The notes beneath the pieces are model-generated. The model was not told the origin of the DNA, ran no database searches, and worked only from the letters and a program-made list of their open reading frames with translations. DNA of 64,000 nt from assembly GCF_014844055.1 (NCBI RefSeq), contig NZ_CP062167.1, forward strand, positions 759,501-823,500, read 5' to 3'. Both the position numbers and the translations under genes were made by a program. The stretch comes from Aureimonas sp. OT7 (GTDB lineage Bacteria; Pseudomonadota; Alphaproteobacteria; Rhizobiales; Rhizobiaceae). Positions 2,666-29,105 of this stretch are shown piece by piece (the first letter of the stretch is position 1; each line of letters begins with the position of its first letter).

Positions 2666-3105
2666 GAGTGGTCACTTTCGGAAAGGTTGACGGAAGAGCC
2701 GGAGCCGTGGCCGTCGCCGGAGCGGACGGCATGGGTTGTGGTCTGGACGCCATGCGAGAGGCGCTGCGAGCGCTGCATTCGCTTCGCCCAATCGGGCTGG
2801 TCCTTGGCGGTGTGGATGGCGGAAGCGGCGTCGGCCGCCGCATCGGAAGAACCGCCGACTGTCCCCATGGTGGAAGAACCGCCCGTGACGCCGAAGCCGC
2901 TTTTCACGCCATCGGAAAAGCTGGCCTTGACGCCCTCCACGATGTCGATGGTGGGGACATAGACGTAACGCTCGGAACGGCTGTCATGCGCCTCGCGGGC
3001 GAAGATGGACGGGACGTGCCGAAACAGGGCCTCATTGTCGAGCGGTTCGCGTCCGCTGATCTGGTGAGCATTGCGGCCGAACCGGGTGGCGAGCTGGTGA
3101 TACAT
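2662..3105 (-). pseudogene. In-frame deletion chimera: DUF932 N-terminus fused to TrbL C-terminus
   Basis: The ATG at 3103-3105 has a good AGGAG site 6-7 bp upstream and opens a 147-codon frame. Residues 1 to ~58 match the start of plasmid/ICE DUF932 proteins (MYHQLATRFGR, then PSIFA, SRSERY and VPT). From about residue 60 the text becomes the Ser/Gly-rich TrbL tail (PDWAKRMQRSQ, SHGVQTTTHAVRSGD), ending at the stop that overlaps trbF. Two unrelated families joined without a frame break imply one deletion removing the rest of DUF932, everything to trbL, and the TrbL membrane domain. The join is near 2930. It may be translated but cannot be a working TrbL. The assignment of each half rests on remembered family sequences. 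Confidence 0.8.
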
Positions 3106-3362
3106 GTTCTTTCTCCTGTGGGCTTGGGTTGGAGCGCAGCGCTGCGCTGCAACCCTGCCCGTCGGCGAGACCGGGGGGTGCAAGGTGCAAGGGCACCGGG
3201 ACGGAGGGGGATCACCCGGCCTGCACGGAACGGAGGAACGGCGTGGAGGAAGGCCGGGGAACCGTCCCGGTCGAGAGTCAGCGATCCCTTGCGCCGCGCC
3301 GGGGGGAGACCCCCAAGCAAGCCGCCCGGCCAGCACGGAGCGGAAGCCGGGCACGAGATCCG

Positions 3363-3385
3363 ATCGGGAGTCCCGTTCTCCCGAT
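3363..3385. other. Short inverted repeat (8-bp stem, 7-nt loop)
   Basis: ATCGGGAG pairs with CTCCCGAT across a 7-nt loop, in the non-coding stretch between the DUF736 remnant and the DUF932-TrbL chimera. No poly-T follows on either strand. It could be a weak terminator or an operator. The rest of 3106-3459 holds GC-rich direct and inverted short repeats and no gene I can support. Confidence 0.4.
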
Positions 3386-3419
3386 TCCCTGTTCCTTGAA
3401 GGTGGCGGACATGAGCATG

Positions 3420-3447
3420 AAGAAGCCCCGCCGCGGCGGGGCTTCTT
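3420..3447. terminator. 28-bp perfect palindrome, probable bidirectional terminator
   Basis: Perfect palindrome with arms AAGAAGCCCCGCCG and CGGCGGGGCTTCTT. On the minus strand it lies 12 bp after the stop of the DUF736 remnant, the expected place for its terminator. There is no long U-tract, but the very stable stem ending in TTCTT fits an intrinsic terminator. Confidence 0.65.
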
Positions 3448-3459
3448 GAGGGGCCGGTC

Positions 3460-3650
3460 TTACTCGCCGTTGCGACGGGACCAGATGAGGTTGTGGCTGC
3501 TGCCGTCCTCGGCTTCGACCAGGCTGGCGTAGATCGGGGCCGGGAAGCTCGGATCGTCCAGCTTGACCGAGAGGTATTCGCGACCGGTTTCGCGGGCGGT
3601 CTTGTTCCAGGCGGCGCCGAACTCGGTCGCGCCGGCGAAGATGACGCCGG
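3460..3650 (-). pseudogene. DUF736 protein, C-terminal remnant
   Basis: The last ~62 codons read as the conserved C-terminus of DUF736, a small protein common on alphaproteobacterial conjugative elements: [30 protein letters not shown], then LIWSR. Upstream of about 3650 the frame continues as unrelated low-complexity residues, and the expected MATIGTF-like start is absent. The gene lost its first half at the junction with the AbiEii-like fragment on the other strand. Its terminator palindrome is still present. Confidence 0.8.
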
Positions 3651-3658
3651 ACTTCGCA

Positions 3659-3799
3659 ACAGGTGAACAAAAGCAGCTGCAATGGCGCGCCTTCGTTGCG
3701 GACTTTGCGCACAATCCGCGCGAGCTCGCCGATGTCGTGAGAGAAATAGCTGAATTCCTGACACCGCATGCCATCTCAGCATCGAGAATGGGCCGATGA
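3659..3799 (+). pseudogene. AbiEii-like nucleotidyltransferase toxin, C-terminal remnant
   Basis: About 46 codons ([15 protein letters not shown], then [14 protein letters not shown]) resemble the C-terminal helix region of DUF1814/AbiEii toxins, which typically ends in QWRAFLR followed by a VV..I..FL helix. No start or catalytic region is present. The fragment begins exactly where the DUF736 remnant on the opposite strand ends, so it marks a rearrangement junction. The family call rests on a short stretch. Confidence 0.45.
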
Positions 3800-4454
3800 G
3801 CGGCTTGATTTCAAGTGCTGGGCTTGTGGGGCACGAAAAGGCAGTCGCGCTGCGCCTCGAGCCTGACGTTCGGGCCAGACGCACTCACGGCGGCTGTCGC
3901 CAAGGGTCGCCACGACGCGGTGCGATGCACCCAGTTGGCACACAACCGTTTTAAGGGGAGCCGCGCCGCAAGCTCACTATTGACCTCCGGTGACGAGTCC
4001 AACATTATATTCATGGTTTGTTCTCGATCGTGGGCTCCGGCGTCAACGCGGATTCGAGCCTCCGTATGAGATTGGACTCCGGCGACGTGCGTCAATGGCG
4101 CGCAAACACCGGATTTCCGAAAATCTGGAGACCTGATGTCGGCGAGTCTTATTCTCGGCAGTTCCATTGCCAGAGGTCGGGCAAGTCAGAGGAAAGTAGT
4201 CGGCCACTAAAGCAAGCGTCACATAAAACGACCGGAAAAATACTTCAATAAAGCGCAGAAAGCGGCCTTTAGCGTGGAATTTACTGCAGTTACAAATTGT
4301 CAGCAATGGGTTGGTAGCCTCTGGACTTGGAGCGGGACAGAGGATTAAATGGCGCGCCGAGCGCCCGCGCACCTGCGCGGGCGCTCGGCTGTGAATCGGC
4401 CTTCGACGATACTTTTCCGGCTCGGACCGGCGTGGGAGAAAACTGGGGACGAGC
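3800..4454. other. Gene-free leader of the methyltransferase operon
   Basis: This 655-bp stretch has no ORF with protein-like composition; the minus-strand frames here lack any recognisable motif. It contains the long hairpin at 4356-4389 and the ribosome binding site GGGGAC just before the GTG start at 4455. The promoter of the methyltransferase operon is expected here, but I see no clear -35/-10 pair. Confidence 0.5.
4356..4389. promoter_or_regulatory. 16-bp-stem GC hairpin upstream of the DNA methyltransferase
   Basis: A perfect stem of 16 bp with a 2-nt loop (arms start GCCGAGCGCC and end GGCGCTCGGC), 65 bp before the methyltransferase GTG. No U-tract follows on the plus strand. It could attenuate transcription into the operon, terminate transcription arriving from the left, or bind a dimeric regulator. 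Confidence 0.5.
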
Positions 4455-5726
4455 GTGCATATAAGTAGTGATCAGCCTGTCTTTATCGATGCTTTCGCGG
4501 GCTGTGGCGGCCTCAGCCTGGGCTTGCTGCGGTCCGGGTGGCGGGGCATGTTTGCGATTGAGAAGGATGCATTTGCATTCGACACGTTAAAAACCAACTT
4601 GATCGATCCCGGCGCGCGGTTTCGGTACGATTGGCCAAATTGGCTTGAGCAGCAACCATGGACTATCGAATCGCTGATGGAGGCACATGGGGACAAGCTT
4701 TCAGCTCTTCGTGGCCAAATCGATCTCCTTGCCGGAGGGCCACCCTGCCAAGGGTTCTCAAGTGCAGGCCGTCGACGGCAAGGCGACCCGCGGAACGAAC
4801 TGGTCGAACGCTATTTGGAGTTTGTTGATCTCGTGCTCCCCAAAATGGTGCTGATCGAAAATGTGCGTGGGATTACCTATGACTTTGTTGATGATGATGG
4901 GCGTGTGCCGCCTCGGAACTTCGCGGCAGAACTGATTGCCCGGCTTGGCCGCCACTATCATGTCTATAAGGACACAGTTCGGTGCTCCGAATACGGGGTG
5001 CCCCAGCAGCGGCCTCGCTTCTTCCTCGTAGGCATGCTGAAGGCTGAGATGCGTAAGCTGTCGCGCCGCGATGACCCGTTTGCTCGGCTGCGATCATCAA
5101 AGGTTCGCTTCCTCGCAGAGCGGGGACTTCGATCAAGGGTGAGTTGTAAGCAAGCGATTTCCGACTTGGAGCGCACGCACGCAGGCGCGGGCCCTTGTCC
5201 AGATTCCAAGGGATACGAAGCGTTGCTGACAGCTCACCCACGCACGGCCTACCAGTGCTTGATGCGGGATGGATTTGCTGGTGCTGTTCCAGATACCCGG
5301 CTTGCCAAGCATCGCGCTCATATCGTCGAGCGCTTTACAAATATCATCGCGGATTGCAAGTCAGCTGGTCGGCTCAGTGTACAACTGAACCGCGAGATGC
5401 GGGATCGCTATGGGATAAAGAAGATGGCGACCCGTGTACTGGATCCGGACAAGGCCGCCCCGACGATAACCAGCATGCCGGATGACCTGCTCCATTATTC
5501 GGAGCCCAGGACGCTGACGGTCCGCGAAAATGCGCGGCTGCAGACCTTCCCGGACTGGTTTGCGTTCCAAGGAAAGTACACGACCGGAGGCGAACGCCGA
5601 GCTCGCGAGGTGCCGAGATTCACCCAAGTGGCTAACGCAGTTCCACCACTGATCGCAGAGATGTGGGGAGAAGTTCTACTGAAGTATCTGGCTGCGGCGA
5701 GAAGAATTGACAGGTTGGCCGCGTAG
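4455..5726 (+). CDS. dcm: DNA (cytosine-5-)-methyltransferase
   Basis: 423-aa C5-cytosine methyltransferase. Motif I is FAGCGGLSLG (residues 14-23), motif IV is GGPPCQGFS with the catalytic Cys at ~98, motif VI is ENVRG, and the C-terminus holds RLQTFPDWF and QVANAVPP (motifs IX-X). The variable target-recognition region spans roughly 200-320; its site cannot be read from sequence. The start is a GTG with GGGGAC upstream; there is no in-frame ATG nearby before motif I. It is the first gene of a five-gene same-strand operon, 32 bp before the DptF-like ATPase. It probably protects host DNA from the downstream complex. An orphan or classical type II role is possible, but no cognate type II nuclease is adjacent. 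Confidence 0.93.
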   Translation: MHISSDQPVFIDAFAGCGGLSLGLLRSGWRGMFAIEKDAFAFDTLKTNLIDPGARFRYDWPNWLEQQPWTIESLMEAHGDKLSALRGQIDLLAGGPPCQGFSSAGRRRQGDPRNELVERYLEFVDLVLPKMVLIENVRGITYDFVDDDGRVPPRNFAAELIARLGRHYHVYKDTVRCSEYGVPQQRPRFFLVGMLKAEMRKLSRRDDPFARLRSSKVRFLAERGLRSRVSCKQAISDLERTHAGAGPCPDSKGYEALLTAHPRTAYQCLMRDGFAGAVPDTRLAKHRAHIVERFTNIIADCKSAGRLSVQLNREMRDRYGIKKMATRVLDPDKAAPTITSMPDDLLHYSEPRTLTVRENARLQTFPDWFAFQGKYTTGGERRAREVPRFTQVANAVPPLIAEMWGEVLLKYLAAARRIDRLAA

Positions 5727-5758
5727 AATGGGCGGCGATGAAAGGGTAGCTAATCAAC

Positions 5759-7873
5759 TTGGATAAGCCTGTGGAGAATGAGAGCCGAGTGATCTATCCA
5801 GCGGGCTTACTTGACTGGGCGGGGCACCGCGGCGGCGGGGTGCGACGCCTCTTCGACCCTGGCAGCGGCCGCCCCGGCGAAACTGTTTTTGAGACAAATC
5901 TTCTCAGCCGACTTCGAGATTGGGCGCGACGCATCGCGACATCGGACGAGAATGCGCCGCGGGTTGTGCTACTTGTCGGCGGGCCGGGCAACGGAAAAAC
6001 CGAGGCTGTAGAAGCAACCATAGAGGAACTCGACAAGGCGCTTGATTGCCGTGGCGCGCTGGTGGAGGAGTTAGCAAAATCCTATCATCCGCCCGAGGGC
6101 AAGGCTGTCCCGCGGCTTGTTGTCGTGGACGCGGGCGCGACGGGGCAACCGAAGCGAGATCTTCGTATCGAGGTGGTCCAAGACGCAACAGTTGGAGGAC
6201 AAGGCAGCCACTCTCCCGCGATGTTACTCGTGGACGAATTGGAGGGCGCCCTACAGTCGCCGACAGGGGCATACATCTGCTGCGTGAATCGCGGAGTCCT
6301 TGACGACGCGTTAATTCACTCGATCGACCATCGGCTCAGCAAATCGCAAGACTTACTTGAGGCAATCGTGCGTGCGGTGAGCCTCGCACCCGACGCACCG
6401 TCGTGTTGGCCGCTGGATGAGTATCCGTTGGTCGCAGCGTGGCCTATGGACGCCGAGTCCTTAATCGAGCCAACTGACAACCACGATAATGCGCCAGCCG
6501 CGGCGGTGCTTAGCCGGGCGCTCGATCCGGCGCGGTGGCGGGAGGCTGGTGCGTGTCAGGCGGGTAGCGCCTGTCCTTTCTGCGGCAGCCGAAAGGCGCT
6601 GGCCGGGCGAAAGGAAACGGAGTCTTTTCTCCGTATGCTACGCTGGTTTGAACTTGGGACGAGCAGGCGATGGGCGTTCCGGGATCTCTTCTCCCTAACC
6701 TCCTACCTGTTGGCCGGTAATGGGACCGGACAGCGCGGAGCGTCCGTCGATCCATGTGAATGGGCTGCGGGTCTGGTAGAAGCAGACAAGCAGGCCCAAC
6801 TGCGTGGAAGGCCCAAGCGCGACACGTCGGCGGCGCTGTTTTGGCTCGTCTCCGCGCAGTACCAACACGCTCTTTTCCATCGCTGGGAACGCGGCCTCGC
6901 GTCCTCCTTGCTTCAGGATATTCGGGACCTCGGGTTACAAGAGGACAACACAGCGATGGGGCTGCACTACTTCTTGCAGTCACGGATCGCAGGCTATGTC
7001 CCGGCGACGATTGCTGCGTCGCTCGACGCCTTTGTCGAACTATTAGATCCCGCCATGTCGTCGCCTGATGCCGAAGTGGCAGTATGGGGGGGGCCAATTC
7101 GACTGGGCGAATTTGACGCCCGTTTCAGCCGGTCCGTTCGCGAAGGCTTGGACTATGCGATTGGCTGCCGGGCGTTGTCTCATAACGAGCGCATGCTGCT
7201 CGAGCGGCTTTCCGGGCTGGATGAACTTCTCGCTGTTCCGCGGCTGCGGCTCAAGCGGCCAGCCGCAGCCAATCGCATCCAGCGCGCAGTAAGGGATTTC
7301 GCCTGCAGGGTGACGCGCCGCAGCGTCGGCGCGAGGAATGCGGCAGTGCCAGATGCCGCAACGTTGGACGCCTTCAAGCGCGTGGTGGCGGACGCTGACG
7401 GGCAGGGCCACGACTTGCGAGAGATCGCGAACCAGGTAGAGGACCTTCTCAACGAAGATCACAATTTCAATGTGTCGCTGACGACGACATTCGGCCAGCC
7501 ATTGCCACCGTCCCGGCGCCGAGCGACTTTGGTCGTGTCGCGCCGGCGAGTCTTCCCTCGCGACCTGGCTCACTCGGGACGCCCGCGTCCGTCGATCTGC
7601 TTCCTAGACGTGGAGGTTGGATCAACGCTGCAGCCAATTGCGTTGACATACGACCTGTTCAAGGCCGTGAGCGATCTTGAACATGGGCTGTCGCCGGCGT
7701 CGCTTCCCCGTAGCGTGCTCGCCCTTCTCGACACAACGAGGGCTCGAATGGCGGGATCTATCGTCCGGGATCGCGACGTACGCGAGCGGCCTACGATCAT
7801 CCTGGGAGAAGCAGTATCGGTCGAACGATACAGGGGACGTTTCGAGGCAGGGAACCTTGGGGGGCGCCGATGA
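5759..7873 (+). CDS. DptF-like P-loop ATPase
   Basis: 704-aa ATPase with Walker A GGPGNGKT at 74-81 and Walker B LLVDEL at ~156-161, followed by CVNRGVLDDAL. A Cys cluster (CQAGSACPFC) at ~265 may bind zinc. Size, position and ATPase layout resemble DptF, the first protein of the DptFGH restriction module of phosphorothioation systems, though it is longer than usual. The start is TTG at 5759 with AAAGGG upstream; a GTG at 5771 is the alternative. Its stop overlaps the next gene by 4 bp. The DptF relation is inferred from synteny and architecture, not from an alignment; a generic AAA defence ATPase is the alternative. Confidence 0.7.
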   Translation: MDKPVENESRVIYPAGLLDWAGHRGGGVRRLFDPGSGRPGETVFETNLLSRLRDWARRIATSDENAPRVVLLVGGPGNGKTEAVEATIEELDKALDCRGALVEELAKSYHPPEGKAVPRLVVVDAGATGQPKRDLRIEVVQDATVGGQGSHSPAMLLVDELEGALQSPTGAYICCVNRGVLDDALIHSIDHRLSKSQDLLEAIVRAVSLAPDAPSCWPLDEYPLVAAWPMDAESLIEPTDNHDNAPAAAVLSRALDPARWREAGACQAGSACPFCGSRKALAGRKETESFLRMLRWFELGTSRRWAFRDLFSLTSYLLAGNGTGQRGASVDPCEWAAGLVEADKQAQLRGRPKRDTSAALFWLVSAQYQHALFHRWERGLASSLLQDIRDLGLQEDNTAMGLHYFLQSRIAGYVPATIAASLDAFVELLDPAMSSPDAEVAVWGGPIRLGEFDARFSRSVREGLDYAIGCRALSHNERMLLERLSGLDELLAVPRLRLKRPAAANRIQRAVRDFACRVTRRSVGARNAAVPDAATLDAFKRVVADADGQGHDLREIANQVEDLLNEDHNFNVSLTTTFGQPLPPSRRRATLVVSRRRVFPRDLAHSGRPRPSICFLDVEVGSTLQPIALTYDLFKAVSDLEHGLSPASLPRSVLALLDTTRARMAGSIVRDRDVRERPTIILGEAVSVERYRGRFEAGNLGGRR

Positions 7874-9393
7874 GCCTTGCAGAATTTAAGGCGTCGCCGT
7901 GGGCGAAGTCCCACCAGCTGTATAAGGCGGCAGCGCTTTCGGTAACCCCGGCGCCGGAATATGCAAACTCTGAAGTCCTTGTAGCGGGCCTCTATCGAAC
8001 CATCGGCCTTGCTGGACTGAGCGAGGGAATGGTTCCTCTCAAGGGAAGGGAGCTGGATCGCAATATCGGCACAAGACGTGACAGGCGGACCAAGCCCGAC
8101 GGCGCATCGCTGGAGGGCGATGCTCTTCACGCGCTCCTGCACGATGTGCTGGAGAGTCCGAAGCTTCCCAATCAGTCGACCAAGCGCTTCGTACAAGTGA
8201 CGCCTCTAGTCGGCGAGACGGCATCGTTCTCGGGGTCTGCGCGGTTAGCCGGCAATCCATGGCCGGCGGGCGCTCTGGTCCGTAGGATGATTTGGCTTGG
8301 ATCCCACAGTGGCGAGGCGGCCGAGGCCCGCTGGTCAAGCCTGTTTGATGCATTGATGGTTCATGACGATGACGATGTTTTCGCGCGGTTCCTGAGAGAC
8401 GAGCTGTCCGCTTGGACTGGAATCACGTGGGGTCCTGCATGCATACCACCCGACGCGAGCGACGTGCATTGCCTTCCACCTGATGAACTCGAAGGCTACG
8501 CGTTTCCGGCGCGGCAGTTTGTTCGAGACTTGGACGCAGTCGTTGCCGCAAAGCCTTCGATGACGCGCCGGCAGTGGACAAGCCTCCTAGAAGCCCTGGT
8601 GCGGGTCGCCGCGGTGGCGCATGTGGCGTGGCTTTGCGAAGTTCAAAAGATGACGTGGGATAGCGTAAGGCTTGCAATCGACGGCCAGACGGTCCCCGAT
8701 GACCCCCGCACGCTGTTTTACCCTCGCGTGCTGAATTATCTCAGCTATGGCACTGGCGCTGTTTCGGAGCTCAAGGACCGCACGTCGAAGTACCTGCGAT
8801 CACGCCTCGGAATGAATGCCGTGCTCTGGACTCTCGAAGAGGCCGGAGCAGCGTATGCGGGCACACTTTCATCTGCCGCTGACCTCGGCGCCTTTTGCCG
8901 CCACGTCGGCGCACATCGGTCGAAATTAACGGAGGTCATGAGCCTCGTCGACGACCTTGCCGATAGGGAGGCCCGCGCGCTCCTTTGTCGCAAGGGCGTG
9001 GGGTCGAACCTCATGGAGTTCGGGCGGCATGTCCTCTACCAGCGACAGGCCGCAAACCCGATCCTTCGCGGTTACGACCAAGGCTATATATTGCGCAAGC
9101 GCGGGGCGGCAAAATCGAGTCCGTGGGTGTGCGCCCCAGGTCCAGTGGCCGTGCTCGCCTTGGTACATTGTTCACTTGCAGGCCTTGCTGGGCCTCGATC
9201 CGTACATCGGCTCGCCCAGCATATGGCGGCCTACGGGATTGCAGTAGACTATCGCGACATTGCCCAAAACGAGCTGGGCCACCAGCTCCGCATGCTCGGT
9301 CTGGTGCTGGATAGCCCCGACGCCGAAAGCGGGATGCTCCTAGTCCCACCATTTGCGGCCGCTGGACAAGGCCGCGCGGGTGTAGCGCAATGA
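7870..9393 (+). CDS. DptG-like middle subunit of the restriction operon
   Basis: 507-aa protein with no catalytic motif I recognise. It overlaps the ATPase upstream and the HerA-type protein downstream by ATGA, so the three are made in fixed ratio. The C-terminus (LGHQLRMLGLVLDSPDAESG and VPPF) looks like a winged-helix end comparable with DptG. The central part is helical. It is called DptG-like because of its place between an F-like ATPase and an H-like helicase; alone the sequence would be hypothetical. Codon use matches its neighbours. Confidence 0.5.
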   Translation: MSLAEFKASPWAKSHQLYKAAALSVTPAPEYANSEVLVAGLYRTIGLAGLSEGMVPLKGRELDRNIGTRRDRRTKPDGASLEGDALHALLHDVLESPKLPNQSTKRFVQVTPLVGETASFSGSARLAGNPWPAGALVRRMIWLGSHSGEAAEARWSSLFDALMVHDDDDVFARFLRDELSAWTGITWGPACIPPDASDVHCLPPDELEGYAFPARQFVRDLDAVVAAKPSMTRRQWTSLLEALVRVAAVAHVAWLCEVQKMTWDSVRLAIDGQTVPDDPRTLFYPRVLNYLSYGTGAVSELKDRTSKYLRSRLGMNAVLWTLEEAGAAYAGTLSSAADLGAFCRHVGAHRSKLTEVMSLVDDLADREARALLCRKGVGSNLMEFGRHVLYQRQAANPILRGYDQGYILRKRGAAKSSPWVCAPGPVAVLALVHCSLAGLAGPRSVHRLAQHMAAYGIAVDYRDIAQNELGHQLRMLGLVLDSPDAESGMLLVPPFAAAGQGRAGVAQ

Positions 9394-12300
9394 GCAAGCT
9401 TGTCGACTGGCTCGCCGGGGAGATCCTATCGCGTGTGGCTGAAACCGCCGCCGGGGGTGAGTCTCGGTTGATCTTCCATGGGCCTCCGCTCGAAATTCTT
9501 GGACAAGTTTACGAGCGGCTTACGGCGGGAACCGCAGGTCTAGGCCTGCCCATTCTCCTTCAAATCCCCCAGCACGAGCCAGATGGCACCAATCCTCCGA
9601 TCGGCGCTTCCGGCCGATGCGATGAAACCCATTTGCTGGACTTGCGGAATTCGCCTAACGCTTCGAGTTACCTTGCCTTGGTCCCACCGCGGCAACACGC
9701 GATCCGGTCGGTGTCGTCGACAACCGACGAGTTTGGTGTGTCGGGCGCATGCAACGGTGCCAACGTGCCATTTGACGAATGGTGGGCCGACTCATTCGTC
9801 CAAAAAGCGATAGGAGCCTCGCTTGAGACCACCAAAATCTCTGCCGAGCTGCGCGATAGTGGTGCCGAGCTTGTGCAGCGGGCGATGCGAGCCATGGATG
9901 ACGTCGACCCGGACAAGGATAGCCGCCGAGCAGCGTGGCGGCTCTTGTCACGCGTTTTCGCGGTTGGTGACGGTTCCCTCGCTGCTGCGCGAGGCATCAG
10001 CCTGGCCTGCGGCGTGCCGCCAATGTCTGGCGACAAGCTTTCTCCAAGTGAGCAGCACGCGAGTCTGGACGGGGTTGCTGCAGCGCTATCGGACGGGTTT
10101 AGGTCTGGCCTCGCCGACGCTTTCGACGCCGCCGCGACAGACCAAAAGCTGTTGCTTGAAGCCTTCCTCCAACACATTCGGTCAACCTGCGACGTCCCAA
10201 CCGCTTTAGAGCGAGCGCCAGAAGCATTCTATGCGCCCGATGGTGGCCTCGGCCTCATTGATCCACCTGCTTGGTGGATGGGCCTGACGGCCGAACTATG
10301 GGCGGAACTGCTGAGCGACGAGCCAGAGATTACGGGCGATATACGGCTGGAGTGCCTCAATCCACTATTGCCCGCCTCGAAGGGTGTGCCCTTGCTGGTC
10401 GAGCGTGACGTGCAGCTTGCGATCCGAGCGGGAACCGAGGGCGAGGAACCCGTTGCGGTGACGCTCGGGCGCTCACCCGGCAAAAATGTCGGGGGGTTTC
10501 CTGGCGTTGTCGACGTCGAAGGCGGAGCCGAGTTCACAGACGCATCTCCGCCGCCGCATCGCTCGCCCATCCAGTACAAGGCCAGCGCCGAGAACCACAA
10601 GCTGGCGTCTATAAAGGTGATATCGCTGGAAACTTGGCTTCCGGGCATCTTTGTAGCGTGCCGCCTTGCGAGGAAAATTACCGCGCCGAAGGCGCCCGCG
10701 AGGCGAACACGCGGAGCGAACTGGGAGAGCAGTATCTCGCTTCCAGGCCCCGGCCGATACGAGCTCCTGATATTTATGTCGCCCGGCACGACGGCAGGCG
10801 GACGCGCGACAGGGACAGCGGGCGGCGAAGGTAATGGCGGCGACGAATCCCAGGAGCTCGTGCTCAGAGAGATGCGCCCGGGCTTGCACCAGCTCGAGGT
10901 TGAAGCGGACGGCTCGTATCAGTTCGACATAGCGTTCGAGCGGGCATTGCCGAACGGCAAGATTGCTTCGGAGACGTGCCGCGTATTCCTTTCATGCGAG
11001 GATGTAGTTGAGGATGGTTGCAAGAGCGAGTTCGAACGACTGATCAAGCTAAACCGGAGGCAAGTCGATCCGACTGGATCGAAGCCGGTTGTACAGCTGA
11101 ATAGGAGCGCACGGACAAGCAGCTTGCAGGCATGGATGCTCCAGGACGAGGATGTCTCGCAATCCTACCTGCCGCTTGTCCTAGCCGAGGACTATGGCGA
11201 ACAGTGGGTCCAACCGAAGTGGGCCGAAGAGACCGGGCGTATCTTGTCTGTTGGGCGGTTTCTTCAGGATCCACGCCCGCCGGCGAGCCACTTTGATCCT
11301 CCCGCCGCCTTTGTGGGGGCTCGGCGCGCGATCGCCGCGCTGATCCGAGGTCCAGGCGATCAATCTGGCCTCTTAGAGGCCGCCCCGCTGGGAGAGTGGA
11401 TACGCAACCACGAGTCGTTCCCGGGGCTCATTGAGCAGTACCTCGATGCCTACGCTGCGTGGCTGAAGGCGAGCCCAGAGGTCGCGACGTGGTCCGACGT
11501 CGTTGCTGTAGCTTCTCTGGAGCCGGGCGGTCGCTCCTTGTCCCGAGTGCCTGACGCGATCCTGCTCTCGCCTCTGCATCCCTTGCGGTTGGCTTGGCAC
11601 GCTGTAGCCCAGGGCGTGCTGGATGCGTCGGCATCAAGCAGCCGGCCTTGCCCGGCAGCTGGCGTACTCGACCCCGGCATGGTGCCAGACATCCTTCGGA
11701 TGCCGATTATCTCCCCCGAAGGTATTGAGCACATCCCATTCCTGGCCGTTGAGTCCAACTCCGACTACTGGTCTGTCCTCTGGAACGGGACGCGCCTGCG
11801 CACGTTGCCAGAGCGTTCTCGATCCGCGCCTTTCGGCCCGGCGCTTGGTATTTCGGTTGGCGGAATCTCCACGGGCTTTAGTGCCAGTCAGGTGGAACGC
11901 GCGCTCGATGACGTCTCGAATGTGCTTTGCGCCAAGCCGATCATAAGCGTCGTTGTTAATAGCGCAGGAGGCGCGACCGACTCGTGCAACGAGGGCCTCG
12001 TGGCGTGGTCGGGCGCCCGCTACGCCGAGGGAGGCAAGCCGGTCAGGCGGCACGCATCCGGCCCCCGGCGCCTTGATGTATTTGACACAAGAACGGAGGC
12101 TGCGAGGCCGGACGAGGCCACGATTGCCAATCTCTCTGAGGACACCAGGAACCATGTCAGGTGGTTTTCGGGGCATCCACCGGGCGTTGGCCTTGACTTG
12201 GGCATTATCGCGCAGCTCGATTCCTCGGAACCTGAGGCTTCGGAGACGCCTTCGCTGTCAGCGCTTGGGGCTGGAGGTCTCATTCGCCATCGGGTACGCC

Positions 12301-14855
12301 GCCAGCTTCCGGGCTATTTCCTAAGCGAATCCCGGCAGGCGCGACCGGCCGGGACTTCGGGCGATCCTCTGGCAGACAAGGTTGCCGCTTGCATCGGGGC
12401 TTTGGAGAACACGAGTGTGCAGCCCGCAGGGCTTCGCTTCGCACCAAACGTCCATGCAATTAGCGACATGCTCGAGGAGAAGAAGACCGATTTTGTAGCC
12501 GTTTCGTCATCTGCGGTGGACCCGGCTTGCTTTCTCGGAGGCTGGCTCCCGCAATCCTACCTGTGGGACTATGACCTTCCCTCCTATTCGCACCGCGCCG
12601 GCGACACCAACGGCTATTATCTTTTGTCGCGAGTGAAGGCTTCGGACCGCGATGGCCTGAGAAAGGTACTATCCCGGCTCCCCGGCTGCGAAACGCTCGA
12701 CGATGCACGGGTGGAAGACATCCTGCTTGAAGTCGCGCGCCGCGGAATCCCAACGATCCGCGGGCTCGCCGGCGACGATACCGGAGCAACAGGGGATTTA
12801 GGTCTTTTCGTTGCCGCCCGCCTCTTGCAGGACCGGTTCCGACTAGGGTCAAGCGCCAACAGCCTTATGCCCGTGATCGGCGGAAGTAGTGACCAACCAA
12901 CAATCTCCTTGGTGATCCCGGTCGACCCATTCCGGGGATATCTCGATGACCTTTCTCGAGCGTTGAACAAGGATCGGCCTGACGCGACGTTGGCGCGGCC
13001 GGACCTCCTGGTCGTTGGCATCACCTTGGGTTCAGGGAAGACCCATATCCACCTTACTCCCGTCGAGGTGAAATGCCGCCTGGGCTCCGTCTTTCCGGCA
13101 GCCGACGTAAAGGACGCCCTAGGGCAGGCAAGATCCCTGGCGGACCTGCTTTCCGAACTAGCGGAGGACCACGACGCTCTGTCGGCTTGGCGTCTCGCCT
13201 ACCAGCACCTCCTCCTGTCGATCATCGGCTTCGGGATGAGGGTGTATAGTGCGCATCAGGATCTGGTGGGCGCCTCGGCCGATTGGGCTGGCTTCCATGA
13301 GAGGATCGCCGGCGCTGTCCTAGGGGTAAATGGAGACGTCACTATCGACCGCCGTGGGCGTCTTATCGTCGTCGATGACACGGTCATCAGCGATGCAGTA
13401 GATCGGGACGGCGACGGCTTTGAAGAGACGATGATCATAGGGATGCGCGACGCTGAACGGATCGTGGCGGGTGACGCGCAGGGGTTCTACGATAGCGTCC
13501 GCGCGAAGATTGCCGACTGGTCGATGGGAGCGAGGTGCGCGGACCACGCCCGCGTCCCCGGCGGCGCTGCTGTCGCCGCCGATCCTTTGGACCTCATCTC
13601 CGAACCGTTCGACCTGACCGATCCCGAAGTTAACGGGGCTAATGGCGTTGTTATTTCTCCGACCGGCTCCGCGCCAGCGCCGGAGGCCAAGGATGCACCG
13701 ACGCAACCGGACCCCAGTCTCGACGATAGCGGCGTCAAGCTTGCAGTCGGGATAACAGTCGACGGGTTTGAGCGCCGCGACGTCTCGCTTCTATTGTCGG
13801 ACACCAGACTCAATCAGCTCAACATGGGCGTCGTAGGCGATCTTGGCACGGGGAAGACGCAGCTCCTAAAATCACTGGTCTTCCAGATTGCTTCTTCTGC
13901 ACCAAGCAACAGGGGGATAAAGCCGCGCATTCTGATCTTCGACTATAAGCGCGACTACAGCAGCGGCGACTTCGTCAAGGCCACGGGTGCGAGGGTCGTG
14001 AAGCCTTATCGTCTTCCTCTCAATCTTTTCGATACGGCTGGAATGGAAGACTCGATGGTGCCCTGGCTCGATCGCTTTCGGTTCTTCGCCGATGTGCTCG
14101 ATAAGATCTATTCGGGGATCGGTCCGGTCCAGCGGGATAAGTTGAAGCGCGCGGTGAAAACCGCCTATGAAAATTGTGCTGGGCGCGCGCCGACCATCTA
14201 TGATGTCCATGCCGCATATGCCGACTTGTTGGATGGCAAATCAGATTCCCCGATGTCGATCATCGATGACTTGGTCGACATGGAAATCTTCGAGCCCGAC
14301 CCGGCAAAGACCAAGCCATTTGCCGACTTCCTCGATGGCGCCGTGGTGATTTCGCTTGATGCGCTGGGCCAGGACGATCGCAGCAAGAACATGCTGGTCG
14401 CCGTCATGCTGAACATGTTTTACGAAAATATGCTTCGCACGCCCAAGCGACCGTTTATTGGAACGACCCCGCAGCTTCGCGCCATCGACTCATATTTGCT
14501 GGTCGACGAAGCGGACAACATCATGCGATATGAATTTGACGTCCTGCGCAAGTTGCTCCTGCAAGGGCGGGAGTTCGGCTGCGGTGTAATCCTCGCCTCG
14601 CAATACCTCCGGCACTTCAAGGTAAACGCAACCGACTACAGGGAGCCCCTGCTGACCTGGTTCGTGCACAAGGTCCCCAACGTGACGGCCGCGGAACTCA
14701 GTGCGCTGGGTCTGGCGAGCTCCGCAGGCGAGATCGCAGAACGGATCAAGGGCTTGCCGAACCATCATTGCCTCTACAAATCGTTCGATGTCCCCGGCCA
14801 GGTTGTCAAGGGCCTGCCTTTCTATGAGTTGATGGCGAACAAGGCCGAGGGCTAG
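9390..14855 (+). CDS. DptH-like giant HerA/FtsK-type ATPase
   Basis: 1821-aa protein with a long N-terminal region of unknown fold and a C-terminal HerA/FtsK-class motor. Walker A GDLGTGKTQ lies at ~1482-1490, a first acidic strand reads ILIFDYKRDY, Walker B is LLVDEADN at ~1703, and the sensor strand is GVILASQ. This matches the architecture and length class of DptH, the large ATPase/helicase of Dnd restriction. A segment near residues 1215-1235 (LTPVEVKCRLG) has the E-x-K pattern of a PD-(D/E)xK nuclease core and could be the cutting domain; this is a guess. The stop is 3 bp before the Vsr gene. It probably translocates on DNA within a complex with the two upstream proteins. Confidence 0.72.
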   Translation: MSKLVDWLAGEILSRVAETAAGGESRLIFHGPPLEILGQVYERLTAGTAGLGLPILLQIPQHEPDGTNPPIGASGRCDETHLLDLRNSPNASSYLALVPPRQHAIRSVSSTTDEFGVSGACNGANVPFDEWWADSFVQKAIGASLETTKISAELRDSGAELVQRAMRAMDDVDPDKDSRRAAWRLLSRVFAVGDGSLAAARGISLACGVPPMSGDKLSPSEQHASLDGVAAALSDGFRSGLADAFDAAATDQKLLLEAFLQHIRSTCDVPTALERAPEAFYAPDGGLGLIDPPAWWMGLTAELWAELLSDEPEITGDIRLECLNPLLPASKGVPLLVERDVQLAIRAGTEGEEPVAVTLGRSPGKNVGGFPGVVDVEGGAEFTDASPPPHRSPIQYKASAENHKLASIKVISLETWLPGIFVACRLARKITAPKAPARRTRGANWESSISLPGPGRYELLIFMSPGTTAGGRATGTAGGEGNGGDESQELVLREMRPGLHQLEVEADGSYQFDIAFERALPNGKIASETCRVFLSCEDVVEDGCKSEFERLIKLNRRQVDPTGSKPVVQLNRSARTSSLQAWMLQDEDVSQSYLPLVLAEDYGEQWVQPKWAEETGRILSVGRFLQDPRPPASHFDPPAAFVGARRAIAALIRGPGDQSGLLEAAPLGEWIRNHESFPGLIEQYLDAYAAWLKASPEVATWSDVVAVASLEPGGRSLSRVPDAILLSPLHPLRLAWHAVAQGVLDASASSSRPCPAAGVLDPGMVPDILRMPIISPEGIEHIPFLAVESNSDYWSVLWNGTRLRTLPERSRSAPFGPALGISVGGISTGFSASQVERALDDVSNVLCAKPIISVVVNSAGGATDSCNEGLVAWSGARYAEGGKPVRRHASGPRRLDVFDTRTEAARPDEATIANLSEDTRNHVRWFSGHPPGVGLDLGIIAQLDSSEPEASETPSLSALGAGGLIRHRVRRQLPGYFLSESRQARPAGTSGDPLADKVAACIGALENTSVQPAGLRFAPNVHAISDMLEEKKTDFVAVSSSAVDPACFLGGWLPQSYLWDYDLPSYSHRAGDTNGYYLLSRVKASDRDGLRKVLSRLPGCETLDDARVEDILLEVARRGIPTIRGLAGDDTGATGDLGLFVAARLLQDRFRLGSSANSLMPVIGGSSDQPTISLVIPVDPFRGYLDDLSRALNKDRPDATLARPDLLVVGITLGSGKTHIHLTPVEVKCRLGSVFPAADVKDALGQARSLADLLSELAEDHDALSAWRLAYQHLLLSIIGFGMRVYSAHQDLVGASADWAGFHERIAGAVLGVNGDVTIDRRGRLIVVDDTVISDAVDRDGDGFEETMIIGMRDAERIVAGDAQGFYDSVRAKIADWSMGARCADHARVPGGAAVAADPLDLISEPFDLTDPEVNGANGVVISPTGSAPAPEAKDAPTQPDPSLDDSGVKLAVGITVDGFERRDVSLLLSDTRLNQLNMGVVGDLGTGKTQLLKSLVFQIASSAPSNRGIKPRILIFDYKRDYSSGDFVKATGARVVKPYRLPLNLFDTAGMEDSMVPWLDRFRFFADVLDKIYSGIGPVQRDKLKRAVKTAYENCAGRAPTIYDVHAAYADLLDGKSDSPMSIIDDLVDMEIFEPDPAKTKPFADFLDGAVVISLDALGQDDRSKNMLVAVMLNMFYENMLRTPKRPFIGTTPQLRAIDSYLLVDEADNIMRYEFDVLRKLLLQGREFGCGVILASQYLRHFKVNATDYREPLLTWFVHKVPNVTAAELSALGLASSAGEIAERIKGLPNHHCLYKSFDVPGQVVKGLPFYELMANKAEG

Positions 14856-14858
14856 GAC

Positions 14859-15311
14859 ATGGCGGATTTCCTGTCGCCCGCGGAACGCTCGGCTAGGATG
14901 GCGCGAATACGATCTAATGATACCTCGCCGGAGGTCGCGCTCCGCAGGGCGCTCCACCGTCTGGGCCTTCGATATGTGCTTCGCAAGAAGGGCCTTCCTG
15001 GCAAACCCGATCTGGTCTTCCCAAAGCATCACGCAGTCGTATTTGTTCACGGTTGCTTCTGGCATCGACACGCAGGCTGCAAGGTCGCCTCTACACCGAA
15101 GAGCAACACGCAGTTCTGGACGGACAAGTTTGACCGAAACGTTGCGCGAGATGCACGCGTCCAGGATGAGCTGCGAGCGCAAGGATGGCGTGTTTTTGTG
15201 ATATGGGAGTGCGACCTTCAGTCAAAGATGCGGGCAAACTTAACGGCGGAATCGCTAGCCGCCGATATACGTTGTGACCTGACCTGGAATGAGCCGCCGA
15301 CTCAGTCATGA
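14859..15311 (+). CDS. vsr: Very short patch repair (Vsr-type) endonuclease
   Basis: 150-aa Vsr family protein. It has the N-terminal SPAERSARMARIRSNDTSPE segment, the PGKPDLVFPKH strand with the metal-binding Asp, and the zinc/active-site stretch VFVHGCFWHRHAGC, followed by RVFVIWECDL. Classical Vsr nicks beside T in T:G mismatches formed by deamination of 5-methylcytosine. It starts 3 bp after the DptH-like gene, so it is translated with it although the methyltransferase is four genes away. It may repair methylation-induced damage, or in this setting act as the operon's strand-cutting nuclease. Both readings are inference beyond the family call. Confidence 0.92.
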   Translation: MADFLSPAERSARMARIRSNDTSPEVALRRALHRLGLRYVLRKKGLPGKPDLVFPKHHAVVFVHGCFWHRHAGCKVASTPKSNTQFWTDKFDRNVARDARVQDELRAQGWRVFVIWECDLQSKMRANLTAESLAADIRCDLTWNEPPTQS

Positions 15312-15360: not shown

Positions 15361-16050
15361 CTATTTTCCAGATGGCTCGGAACGCGCCACGTAGGTTTGG
15401 ACGATGATGCTTTCTTTCGGCTGCCCGCTTTTGTCTGTCAGGACGAGGTATAGCCCACCCGGAAGAAGTGGCTTGTTGGTCACAGGCATGCCGTTAGCCT
15501 CCGCAATCGCGCGGCGCTTGCCGAATTCGCCCTCAGCCAAGATCAGGTAGGCTTGCTCGATACGCGAGCCTGGAAAGTAAGTCGCAGGATCGTAACCTTG
15601 CATTCTCTTGAAGGATGCAAGTAGCTCGTCGCTAAGGAAGTAGAATTCCTCCCGCATGAGGCCTCGCTCGACGGCATCGTCAGTGAGGATGCTATAGAGC
15701 CGCTCCATTATGGCCAGCTTCTCGCCGCCTTGTGCATCTACCGGTAATGACAGGTCCGGCCGCGCGTTAAAGCCTCGGTGCATCTCTCTGTGACACGGAC
15801 TGCAAAGCGTTATGCCATTTCCAGTCTGAAATTGTGCCACGGTCAGGAACGACTTGCGACAAATGTGGTGAGCGGACAGACGGCGGCGCGAATGGCAGTC
15901 CACACACCTATGTCCGTCACGTTCTCGGATGAACTCGCTCCACCGGCGAAGACAGCGCTCGCGAGACAAGCCCTCCGCTACGGCGGCCTGGAGCTTCGTT
16001 AGTTTGGCGGTGATCGCTTCGAGAGCGGAAACATCGGCCGTTTGGGGCAT
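15361..16050 (-). CDS. HNH endonuclease domain protein
   Basis: 229-aa protein with a full HNH/zinc-finger core at ~46-95: CVDC, then AHHICRK, GNGITLCSPCHREMH. The N-terminal helix and a C-terminal region of ~130 residues are not recognised. It is convergent with the Vsr gene (49 bp apart; a weak GC hairpin at ~15339-15361 may separate them). Nine bp upstream a small ORF ends in the same direction. A nuclease role in defence is likely from its location, but a homing-type nuclease cannot be excluded. Confidence 0.82.
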   Translation of the reverse strand: MPQTADVSALEAITAKLTKLQAAVAEGLSRERCLRRWSEFIRERDGHRCVDCHSRRRLSAHHICRKSFLTVAQFQTGNGITLCSPCHREMHRGFNARPDLSLPVDAQGGEKLAIMERLYSILTDDAVERGLMREEFYFLSDELLASFKRMQGYDPATYFPGSRIEQAYLILAEGEFGKRRAIAEANGMPVTNKPLLPGGLYLVLTDKSGQPKESIIVQTYVARSEPSGK

Positions 16051-16058
16051 TTGGCTAC

Positions 16059-16380
16059 CTAATGCGACTGAACTTCAGTGGCGAGGTATTCAGACAGCGC
16101 CGACTGCATACGCAGACCGCCAATTTCCCGGACCGAATAGCGGTAGTTCGGCTCCGACACAATGACCGACTGGCCTTTCATGTCTTCGGCAGTAGCGAGC
16201 TGCGTTGTAATGCAATCCCTGCAGATTTTCACGATAGGTAGGTGATGTAGGCGTGGCTTGGTCAATAAGTTCTTCGATGGAATTGTGGCCTGCAATCGTG
16301 TGGAGGCAAGCGCGCGGCCACGCGCGATGTATGCGCCCCGACTTCTGCGGTTCATCCATGAATTCCTCAATTTTATGCAT
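16059..16380 (-). pseudogene. Possible frameshifted small gene upstream of the HNH gene
   Basis: Two partial frames look protein-like. One starts at ATG 16378-16380 (MHKIEEFMDEPQKSGRIHRAW, then NSIEELIDQATPTSPTYRENLQ). The other, ending at 16059, reads TTQLATAEDMKGQ and NYRYSVREIGGLRMQSALSEYL. A single frameshift near 16215 would join them into a ~105-aa protein whose stop is 9 bp before the HNH start, as expected in an operon. The short ORF 16059-16181 could instead stand alone. No family recognised. Confidence 0.3.
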
Positions 16381-16561
16381 AATCCCTGCCCCCGGTTTGT
16401 TCGCTGAAGATACATCATGCCCGGACTGGCAGGATAATTATCGTCGCTGCCAATTACCCCACTTTCCCATAATGAAGTTACCACGACCGAGAGTTCAATC
16501 GGAACGGCCTGTGTCAGTGCTGTCATTTAGTGAGCAACGGCGCTAATGCGCGTCCAGGCGG

Positions 16562-17377
16562 TTAGGAACGTTCAATATCGCTGATGCGCTTCAAAATAGC
16601 GCCAAGGAACAAATCGCGCGGATGTTCACCTGGGCTTTCGCCTAGCTCAATCATTGCGGCCATGTCGTCTACAAGATCAGCGCCACCGGATACATGGTAC
16701 TGAGGTTCGCCGCTGGCTCGATGCAACTGACCGGCAGCGATGCGCTGGATCGAAGCTGTATCCAGAGGTTCGATTTCACGGCTCAAAATTCTCAGCTTCT
16801 CGCCCGCAGGGAAATCGCCCACATCCGTATAACCCGGAGGAAGTCCGATGGCAGCTTCAACATCGCTCCAGTCGTAACCCAATGCCGTCATACCTTCTTC
16901 GGTAAAGGCACGACAGGGGCAGGAATCAAAGGGGAAGACCCTAACACATTCAAGAAGCAGGTTCGCCAATTTGACCAGATGGGCTGCACAACAGGCGTCA
17001 ATGTCGCGACCTATGAGTTCTTCTGGCAGGGAATGCGGTCTGCCGACGAAGCGATAGGTCCACCCGCCTCCCGGGAGCGATCCACCCACGAAGGAAACCG
17101 GCCCTTGTTTCTGCGAGATGTTCCGCAATTCGATAAAAAAACGCATTGCGGCATCCGCCTTCATCACAGCTTGTTGCTGTCCGTACCATGAAGCAAAGCC
17201 GGTCACATCTGACATGGCTTTCTGAAGAACAAATGTCACGCTTCTGCTAGCGGAAAGGAAAGCGTTCAGCTCGAATTGAAATTCTAACCCATTCGAATAC
17301 GTCAAGCGCGCGAGAAAATGCTCGGCCTCAAGGAGCTTTTCAACAGGGTGGCGAAGCGTTGTGAAGCTGTGGGTCAT
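16562..17377 (-). CDS. Hypothetical helical protein
   Basis: 271-aa protein I cannot assign. The N-terminal third (FELNAFLSASRSVTFVLQKA, FASWYGQQQ, RFFIELRNISQK) resembles helical proteins of HEPN-like appearance, but the RNxxxH ribonuclease motif is not complete: RN is followed by ISQK. The C-terminus is acidic. It is divergent from the giant ATPase gene at 17524 with ~147 bp between, and could share its promoter region. A toxin or accessory function would be inference. Confidence 0.6.
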   Translation of the reverse strand: MTHSFTTLRHPVEKLLEAEHFLARLTYSNGLEFQFELNAFLSASRSVTFVLQKAMSDVTGFASWYGQQQAVMKADAAMRFFIELRNISQKQGPVSFVGGSLPGGGWTYRFVGRPHSLPEELIGRDIDACCAAHLVKLANLLLECVRVFPFDSCPCRAFTEEGMTALGYDWSDVEAAIGLPPGYTDVGDFPAGEKLRILSREIEPLDTASIQRIAAGQLHRASGEPQYHVSGGADLVDDMAAMIELGESPGEHPRDLFLGAILKRISDIERS

Positions 17378-17523
17378 ATGTCAGAGTGTAGCGGATGTTT
17401 TCTTCCGTGACCCACCCAGCTCGAAGAGCGAAAGAGCTCCCCATGCTAAACGCTACATCTATACGCTCGGGTTGCGCCGGAATAAGTTCTGCTTTGCTCA
17501 GCTAGTTGCGATCTTCTGGGGTC

Positions 17524-27064: not shown

Positions 27065-27333
27065 TGTTTGCCCACTCCCATCCGCTCGCAGCTGCTTACT
27101 CTTCCACGAATAAATGTAGAGACAATGGAAATGAACGTTATTTCCGAACCCTACATGATTTAAACTTACCGATGATTGTCCGCGCTGATCAGAAAACGAT
27201 ATTGCTTCGGCTTCAAGCTCTTCGAACGACAATTTGATGGCTGGGCACAAGACCTTAGTGAGGGCGACATCTGCGAACTGAATTTCAGCTTTGCTAAGTC
27301 GAACGTCGAAAGGTACCCGTCGGGTGCCGGCCT

Positions 27334-28190: not shown

Positions 28191-29105
28191 CTATCTCGTC
28201 AGGACCTCTTGAAGCTGTTTCACCAGCGTCCCCCGCTTCTCGGCACTCAGGCTATCGAGATTCTGTTGCCGCCACCGCACGGCCGGCAGACTAGCGGCTG
28301 CCTCCAAGCCGACTGTTGACCAATCGGGCTCGCCTCGTTCGAACGCCAACAGGAATTGGCGGTGAGCATCAGGCATTGAACCGACGATTTCGCTGATCAG
28401 CGCTTCACGCGCTGCCAGAAGGTCGTCGAGTGCAACCGGCTGCCGCGTCATGCCGACGAAGCCGCGCTCGAACTCAGCTTTGATGTCTTTCCGGCGCGCC
28501 GCAAGCACCTCGGCCATGGGCCGGTCGTGGCTGATGAGGTAGACGAGAAAGGTCCGCCGCAGCGCGTCGTCGATGCCTTCGTTTGCCAGGAGGTCGCGCG
28601 CATCGAAGAGGTCACGTGGATGCTGCCGGTCGAATGCGGCGACGATCTTCCCGGCGTAGAGATCGGGGAAGGAGACAATCCGCATTTCCGCGAAACCAAA
28701 CTCGTCTTCGACGCCAGAGGAAACCGCACGAAATTCGGGTTCGAATACGCAGCCTCGCAGGACCGGCGTGACCTCGATTTTGATCTGCGCACTGTCGCTG
28801 CGAACCACGAGCTTGGTGACGACGTTTTCGCGCGAGCGCGACGGTGCGACGCGGGTGCCACGAACCGCTTCAGTGATGCGCTCCGCGATGCGTAGCATCG
28901 CCGCATCGATCGCAGCTAGCGAGGCCGCGCGTTCCTGAACCGGCACATAGGTGAGGTCGATATCGACCGAAAGCCGTGGCAGGTCCCGGATGAAGAGATT
29001 GATGGCCGTGCCGCCCTTCATCGCAAAACACTCTTCCGCTGCGACTGAAGGCAACGCGCGGATCAGGAGCGCGACCTGGTTGCGGTAGGCGTCAGCAAAA
29101 GCCAT
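28191..29105 (-). CDS. abiEii: AbiEii/AbiGii-type nucleotidyltransferase toxin
   Basis: 304-aa DUF1814 nucleotidyltransferase. The active-site strand reads MKGGTAINLFIRDLPRLSVD followed by IDLTYVPV, giving the G(G/S)xA...R.S.DIDL signature. The C-terminal helical part is complete, unlike the fragment at 3.7 kb. Type IV toxins of this family transfer nucleotides to tRNA or other targets and cause growth arrest during phage infection. It overlaps the antitoxin gene by one base (ATG at 29105) and is followed after 8 bp by the DUF3883 gene. Confidence 0.92.
   Translation of the reverse strand: MAFADAYRNQVALLIRALPSVAAEECFAMKGGTAINLFIRDLPRLSVDIDLTYVPVQERAASLAAIDAAMLRIAERITEAVRGTRVAPSRSRENVVTKLVVRSDSAQIKIEVTPVLRGCVFEPEFRAVSSGVEDEFGFAEMRIVSFPDLYAGKIVAAFDRQHPRDLFDARDLLANEGIDDALRRTFLVYLISHDRPMAEVLAARRKDIKAEFERGFVGMTRQPVALDDLLAAREALISEIVGSMPDAHRQFLLAFERGEPDWSTVGLEAAASLPAVRWRQQNLDSLSAEKRGTLVKQLQEVLTR

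Follow-up and report, generated by a model that had tools for sequence, protein, structure and literature searches.

A conserved cassette of C5-cytosine methyltransferase, DndFGH-like module and Vsr is probably an unrecognised restriction system

How the DndFGH restriction machinery tells own DNA from foreign DNA is an open puzzle, and only 10 to 15 % of host consensus sites are reported to carry phosphorothioate (PMC10853773). The locus described here raises the question whether a machine of this kind can work with another mark altogether. Within a stretch of 64,000 nucleotides from Aureimonas sp. OT7 (contig NZ_CP062167.1, positions 759,501 to 823,500; hereafter the window), the gene of a C5-cytosine DNA methyltransferase (MTase) is followed on the same strand by three genes, termed F, G and H, that resemble dndFGH (dptFGH), and by the gene of a Vsr very-short-patch-repair endonuclease. 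We find that these genes form, near certainly, a conserved cassette, which is probably an unrecognised restriction system with methyl marks separating own from foreign DNA. A C5 MTase proper to a DndFGH clade would mean that nature has exchanged the mark while keeping the type of machine, and 5-methylcytosine (5mC) is easier than phosphorothioate to write, map and remove.

Open reading frame (ORF) coordinates and family matches agree with the five same-strand genes, joined by 4-bp overlaps or short gaps, that had been described in a first-pass annotation made from the sequence alone (Table 1). The gap is 32 bp between the MTase and F and 3 bp between H and Vsr, and the overlaps at F/G and G/H are of 4 bp each. 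The MTase matches PF00145 (E 8.4e-44), TIGR00675 (E 4.7e-31) and the PDB entry 3g7u (E 1.2e-23); Vsr matches PF03852 (E 4.5e-28), TIGR00632 (E 6.6e-43, over the cut-off) and the Vsr structure 1cw0 (E 8.1e-29). According to a profile search of the genome, these are its single C5 MTase and its single Vsr.

That the three middle genes are DndFGH-like is well supported: H by sequence, G by fold and F weakly. H was identified through its C-terminal HerA domain, which matches the DndH model of PADLOC (E 3.6e-70) and the DptH structure 7es4 (E 1.7e-47). Its match to the DptH profile is colinear and covers 506 columns ahead of the HerA domain, including the nuclease motif (E 8e-5, probability 61 %). 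The characteristic composition of DndH, a C-terminal HerA/FtsK ATPase together with a PD-(D/E)XK nuclease and a length near 1700 amino acids, is present, and the D/E/K residues of the nuclease as well as the Walker residues are invariant in all 58 rows of the family alignment. G gave no sequence-profile match to canonical DptG in local hhalign comparison and no notable match in sequence scans of Pfam, NCBIfam, PADLOC or PDB. A second look at its fold with VIA-align ranked DndG first (7exx fold, root-mean-square deviation 6.8), and G has the triple winged helix of the DndG fold. F carries the Walker A motif GGPGNGKT; its other matches in Pfam, NCBIfam, PADLOC and PDB are weak or generic for P-loop proteins, with SspF at E 0.075 and mad8 at E 0.005. 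Neither F nor G is named by any PADLOC or NCBIfam model scanned here.

The first-pass annotation had proposed that the middle proteins resemble DptF-DptG-DptH and had suggested profile and Foldseek comparison with them. The resemblance held, with H matched, G reached only through the VIA-align fold comparison and F through a weak profile match. As what would overturn this assignment it had named membership in another known system such as BREX or MADS. Both are multi-gene, methylation-linked defence systems, and MADS shares a HerA/P-loop ATPase with the cassette. This identity appears unlikely: mad8 was the sole match listed, to the HerA domain of H (E 1.7e-12) and weakly to F, and no other mad or BREX model of PADLOC was listed for F, G, H or Vsr, nor for the MTase among the best 25 of its 62 families. 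In a quick tree of DndH, all MTase-linked H proteins fall into one clade of 56 rows (SH-aLRT 99), separate from six canonical DptH and two Acidobacterial H, with branches so long that the deepest placements are unsure.

A restriction module of this kind might still depend on phosphorothioate. A profile search found neither DndC nor DndE in the OT7 genome (Ssp-type genes were not searched separately), so that the pair that marks a DndABCDE-coupled system was not seen there. Extended to 49 of the 62 genomes of the scan described below, the search found DndC above the cut-off in one of 50 host genomes (one more below the cut-off at E 1.4e-37, two marginal) and DndE in one. The earlier statement that no dnd modification genes are present therefore stands for DndC and DndE in OT7 and in almost every one of the 50 genomes. 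Eight canonical DptFGH loci of 24 to 33 kb, classed as canonical by DptF/DptG/DptH annotation or by a DptF match, served as controls for the partner genes, and the same profiles that detect C5 MTase and Vsr in the cassette found neither in any of them (0/8 each). Among these controls, dnd modification genes are annotated in L071, L072, L077 and L079 and none are listed in L080 and L081; L073 and L078 are unannotated. In L081, from Priestia megaterium, dptF is immediately preceded by genes for an adenine MTase of the Dam family and for an AlwI-type nuclease (L081:7214-11110).

The distribution of the cassette was assessed by scanning 84,980 species genomes once with the H alignment, using two short H motifs. 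This returned 62 loci, a sample both biased and incomplete. With L008 from IMG/VR, four plasmid loci and the window, 68 loci were assembled, 54 of them with full-length F, G and H; every complete locus except the window was found through H queries. In the remaining 14 (L039, L040, L050, L054, L055, L059, L061, L062, L063, L065, L066, L068, L069 and L070), F, G or H is missing, undetected, cut by the contig end or fragmented. The order F-G-H on one strand is kept in 54/54 complete loci, with one small ORF between G and H in L074, and with script-assigned gene starts the exact 4-bp overlap recurs in 41 of the 54 for F/G and likewise for G/H. The stretch fetched for each locus includes a C5 MTase in 53/54 (in L064 as two ORFs), so that the genetic coupling of MTase and nuclease typical of restriction-modification is nearly constant. 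It stands directly before F on the same strand in 47/54, at -4 to 111 bp, and downstream of H in L014, L016, L033, L049 and L074. Vsr is found in 43/54, a count that includes the split gene of L032 and the short one of L027: in 41 it comes after H, in L016 after the downstream MTase and in L038 before the MTase. The five-gene synteny that was to be looked for, in which the MTase immediately precedes F and Vsr immediately follows H, is complete in 40/54 loci. The loci, among them near copies such as L041/L047, are not independent of one another, so that a hypergeometric value calculated over them cannot be taken as a true probability. The same gene order recurs in dozens of species, and the cassette is thus more than a chance arrangement.

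We read the cassette as a restriction-modification system in which 5mC set by the C5 MTase would be the protecting mark and the DndFGH-like complex, as an ATP-dependent nuclease, would attack unmarked DNA, and we put the probability of this reading at roughly 0.7. Replacement of phosphorothioate by a methyl mark is what the data favour most, because the C5 MTase is a near-constant partner. Of the first-pass proposal that 5mC replaces phosphorothioate as the self mark, the swap is well supported by the near constancy of the MTase and the near absence of DndC and DndE, and the protection itself we infer. Judged by its family and intact catalytic residues, the MTase would methylate a sequence motif. 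G, as a DNA-binding subunit of DndG fold, and H, as a HerA-type pump with a PD-(D/E)XK nuclease, would load on DNA and scan it, with F as the putative nucleotide-binding subunit of the complex; this architecture is taken from sequence and fold, and the activity would be that of DptFGH. Methyl marks would hold the complex off, as phosphorothioate does canonical DndFGH, and unmarked DNA would be nicked or cut. Vsr, by its family, would repair the T:G mismatches that arise from deamination of 5mC and so preserve the protective sites, and it may additionally contribute to retention of the MTase gene. Some annotations of C5 MTase plus Vsr in Proteobacteria are accordingly predicted to be parts of a restriction system, which would have a bearing on barriers to transformation.

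Compared with DndABCDE-DndFGH, the cassette has the same gene order, an H with HerA domain and PD-(D/E)XK nuclease in the same succession, a G of 7exx fold and, as F, a P-loop NTPase with a weak profile link. It differs in its C5 MTase and Vsr, in that neither DndC nor DndE was found in OT7, in its separate DndH clade and in an F and a G that sequence comparison barely detects or misses. SspABCD-SspFGH likewise has a three-gene restriction module with a Walker A motif in F, a translocase-like H and, as noted, a weak link from F to SspF. Type II restriction-modification systems with a C5 MTase and Vsr combine a 5mC mark with a cognate mismatch endonuclease; here, in contrast, the restriction part is a three-gene DndFGH with ATPase domains and no simple endonuclease. 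In the CxC ABC-ATPase/DndE systems of Rakesh et al. 2024, a C5 methylase also replaces the phosphorothioate enzymes of a Dnd-related system, but its partners there are an ABC ATPase-DndE modification core and an HKD-SF2 helicase rather than DndFGH (PMC10853773); the association of cytosine methylase and CxC core is repeated in PMC12839542. The main text of Rakesh et al. describes DndFGH as standalone, without an inbuilt modification module, and does not mention Vsr (PMC10853773). A survey from 2021 accepted dndFGH only where dndCD or dndBCDE was no more than 30 ORFs away (PMC8569181) and would therefore miss the MTase-linked clade. We recognised no published description of a C5 MTase-DndFGH-Vsr cassette, though one may exist in supplements or non-CC papers.

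If methylation protects, the MTase should be the part that the cassette does not do without. The cysteine of the PPC motif is present in 53/54 rows of the MTase family, and the one gapped row presumably stems from the C-terminal of the two ORFs in L064. The role is filled by MTases from no fewer than three distinct lineages, all of them C5 and 27 to 36 % identical over long alignments. The window type and the type of L031, L046, L044 and L019 are 43 to 45 % identical to each other; the type of L016, L026 and the second MTase of L019 is about 30 % identical to both; the type of L014 and L033 is 28 to 36 % identical to all others. On these alignments, the MTase has been replaced by distant C5 MTases at least twice. 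L019 holds two MTases, one of L016 type and one of L031 type, and its nearest relative L026 has an L016-type MTase 385 bp upstream of F together with an 84-amino-acid remnant closest to the other type: the pair is a snapshot of an MTase exchange. With the exception of L060, every locus without the usual MTase has another C5 MTase, which suggests that this type of mark is needed; the exchanged enzymes may or may not share a motif. On the chromosome of Arenimonas daejeonensis (L055), F, G and H are broken into 2, 3 and 5 ORFs beside a whole MTase and Vsr and flanks with long ORFs. From these ORFs, restriction would have been lost and modification kept, the order expected if the MTase protects. 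A bolder version, which we hold only tentatively, is that DndFGH is mark-agnostic, this clade reading 5mC, perhaps by its presence or density rather than as a fixed motif, and phosphorothioate sensing being one version of a translocase that checks for any host mark. Distantly related C5 MTases would therefore be swappable under one FGH.

Several observations weigh against a methyl-marked restriction system. The link of F to DndF rests on a profile comparison with canonical DptF in which the match is weak, plain Foldseek returned nothing for G at E 0.001 or better, and the root-mean-square deviation of its VIA-align match is 6.8. The FGH of L060 lacks a C5 MTase within 10 kb; one lies on its contig, in the same orientation, 14,782 bp upstream of F and is followed by a Vsr. 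L064, a metagenome-assembled genome (MAG), has its MTase in two ORFs beside a whole FGH, the opposite of the prediction, possibly an assembly error. Between L014 and L031, F, G and H are 91 to 92 % identical, the MTases only 33 %, and when distances in windows along F, G and H were correlated with MTase distance over 50 loci, r reached at most 0.33 (in F), with no clear reader. Given this contrast and the lack of a segment that clearly tracks MTase divergence, no 5mC-reader domain was found in F, G or H. Vsr diverges with FGH (partial r 0.66) and not with the MTase (partial r 0.01, permutation share 0.48) in a set of 39 loci, from which Vsr-less loci, the broken L027, L032 and L064 and the near copies L047 and L053 were left out. 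Finally, standalone action has been proposed for DndFGH generally by Rakesh et al. 2024 (PMC10853773).

Applied to the cassette, that proposal would have FGH act against invaders by sensing other cues, such as nucleotides or translocating DNA, and would make the MTase-Vsr pair a passenger that protects the island from other restriction enzymes, or an addiction module. MTase exchange without visible change in FGH would suit it, as would L060, where the nearest MTase-Vsr pair is 14.8 kb away. A passenger, however, would be expected to be lost, or swapped for other kinds of gene, far more often than is seen, and a C5 MTase in 53/54 loci, directly before F in 47/54, contrasts with none in eight canonical DptFGH loci; we regard a standalone FGH here as unlikely. 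The mark could also act in the other direction, methylated DNA switching FGH on in the way that SspE needs phosphorothioate to act (PMC8092258). This appears quite improbable: SspFGH is toxic without its phosphorothioate mark, damaging unmarked DNA and harming cells that lack marks (PMC8092258), unrestrained DndFGH is described as doing likewise (PMC12707154), and the whole MTase beside the broken FGH of L055 is the survivable direction if methylation protects.

The role of Vsr can be weighed in the same manner. Its ten active-site and zinc positions, roles that we take over from E. coli Vsr, are kept in 43 to 45 of 45 rows. Vsr is absent beside FGH in 11/54 loci, one of which, L020, has only 918 bp after H. 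In 10 of these 11 genomes searched, five gave no Vsr-family match (L020, L034, L035, L049 and L064, with L020, L049 and L064 being MAGs), one gave a match below the cut-off and four have a Vsr elsewhere. Vsr is thus helpful without being required. The first-pass annotation had held that homologues regularly without MTase and Vsr would speak against it; this is not so for the MTase, and it is partly so for Vsr. The annotation had also suggested Vsr as an effector, that is, as a working nuclease of the restriction reaction beyond repair. Its place directly after H in 41/54 loci and its divergence along with FGH would fit, and elsewhere Vsr-like nucleases have been proposed as effectors in Type III-B CoCoNuTs (PMC11090510), while Caulobacter cells that have lost a C5 MTase show a DNA damage response that requires VsrA, a Vsr-like protein unlinked to it (PMC12907096). 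Yet Vsr is missing from L035 and present in L022, two loci with H proteins 94 % identical, Vsr adjoins the MTase where the order differs (FGH-MTase-Vsr in L016, Vsr-MTase-FGH in L038 and the broken L055), and H already has an invariant nuclease motif. With the residues of a mismatch endonuclease kept and the gene dispensable, the effector proposal was not sustained and has in our estimate only a slight chance of being right. A simple repair pair of Vsr and MTase is disfavoured as well, no co-divergence being left once FGH distance is removed; as a pattern of sequence divergence, this fits a long-standing cassette member better than a mobile MTase-Vsr pair. If Vsr does repair MTase sites, a motif may be common to the exchanged enzymes, or Vsr itself may be relaxed. 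The dependence on VsrA in Caulobacter means that Vsr could also stabilise the MTase gene.

Table 1. Genes and other features of the cassette region in Aureimonas sp. OT7 (positions in the window unless another handle is given)
Feature	Position	Strand	Remarks
C5-cytosine DNA methyltransferase (MTase)	4455-5726	+	423 aa, GTG start; PPC and ENV motifs intact
F, DndF-like P-loop NTPase	5759-7873	+	704 aa, TTG start; conserved Cys cluster C216, C266, C272, C275
G, DndG-fold protein	7870-9393	+	507 aa
H, DndH	9390-14855	+	1821 aa; PD-(D/E)XK motif D1205...E1226-V-K1228; C-terminal HerA/FtsK ATPase ~1470-1815
Vsr very-short-patch-repair endonuclease	14859-15311	+	150 aa
HNH-like protein	15361-16050	-	229 aa; just after Vsr; weak IscB model match E 7e-5, far below cut-off
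Protein with Sacsin and NOV_C domains	17506-23148		1880 aa
KAP-family NTPase	24884-27250
AbiEi-type antitoxin regulator	29105-29947
VirB8/CagX-type conjugation genes	1020-2665
Tyrosine integrase	L007:16684-17940 (G000:C1:756684-757940)
Tyrosine integrase	32067-33323
Inverted repeat	4356-4389		perfect, 16 bp, 2-base loop

The surroundings of the cassette suggest mobility. It is flanked by two tyrosine-integrase genes about 34 kb apart, with conjugation genes on one side and the Sacsin/NOV_C, KAP-NTPase and AbiEi genes on the other; no tRNA was found in the window or in L007. The region is probably a mobile defence island of putative extent. H of the window is nearest to a Bradyrhizobium protein (87 % identity), the copy in the congeneric Aureimonas Leaf324 being only 60 % identical, so that the cassette moves horizontally, and H is present in 2 of 21 genomes of the genus. 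The cassette also occurs on plasmids, of which one is typed as conjugative. In a sample of 385 genomes of the class, the F query hit OT7 alone, a weak negative as this first look was loose, and it found nothing in viral contigs, where the H queries gave one locus, L008; there a 1049-amino-acid Sacsin-domain protein also follows the cassette.

Some single loci deserve mention. The cassette DNA of L041 (Solimonas variicoloris) and L047 (Bordetella hinzii) is 99.4 % identical, with flanks at 96 to 98 %, and is apparently a recently shared island. In the verrucomicrobial L060, a reverse-transcriptase gene (3018-5015) precedes FGH and an HNH nuclease gene (15512-16741) follows it. L050, an Akkermansiaceae contig, has a full DndH of the clade with no detectable F or G, in a genome with no C5 MTase match. 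The Acidobacterial loci L062, L063, L065 and L066 have an H near the clade, on short contigs that show neither C5 MTase nor Vsr, and L069 and L070 were set aside as matching through HerA alone. Beside the H of L066, which is close to the clade, stands a DndF-like protein with a Druantia DruA domain (L066:1313-5167). In the window itself, the inverted repeat lies about 65 bp upstream of the MTase start and may either terminate the region before it or serve as a control site.

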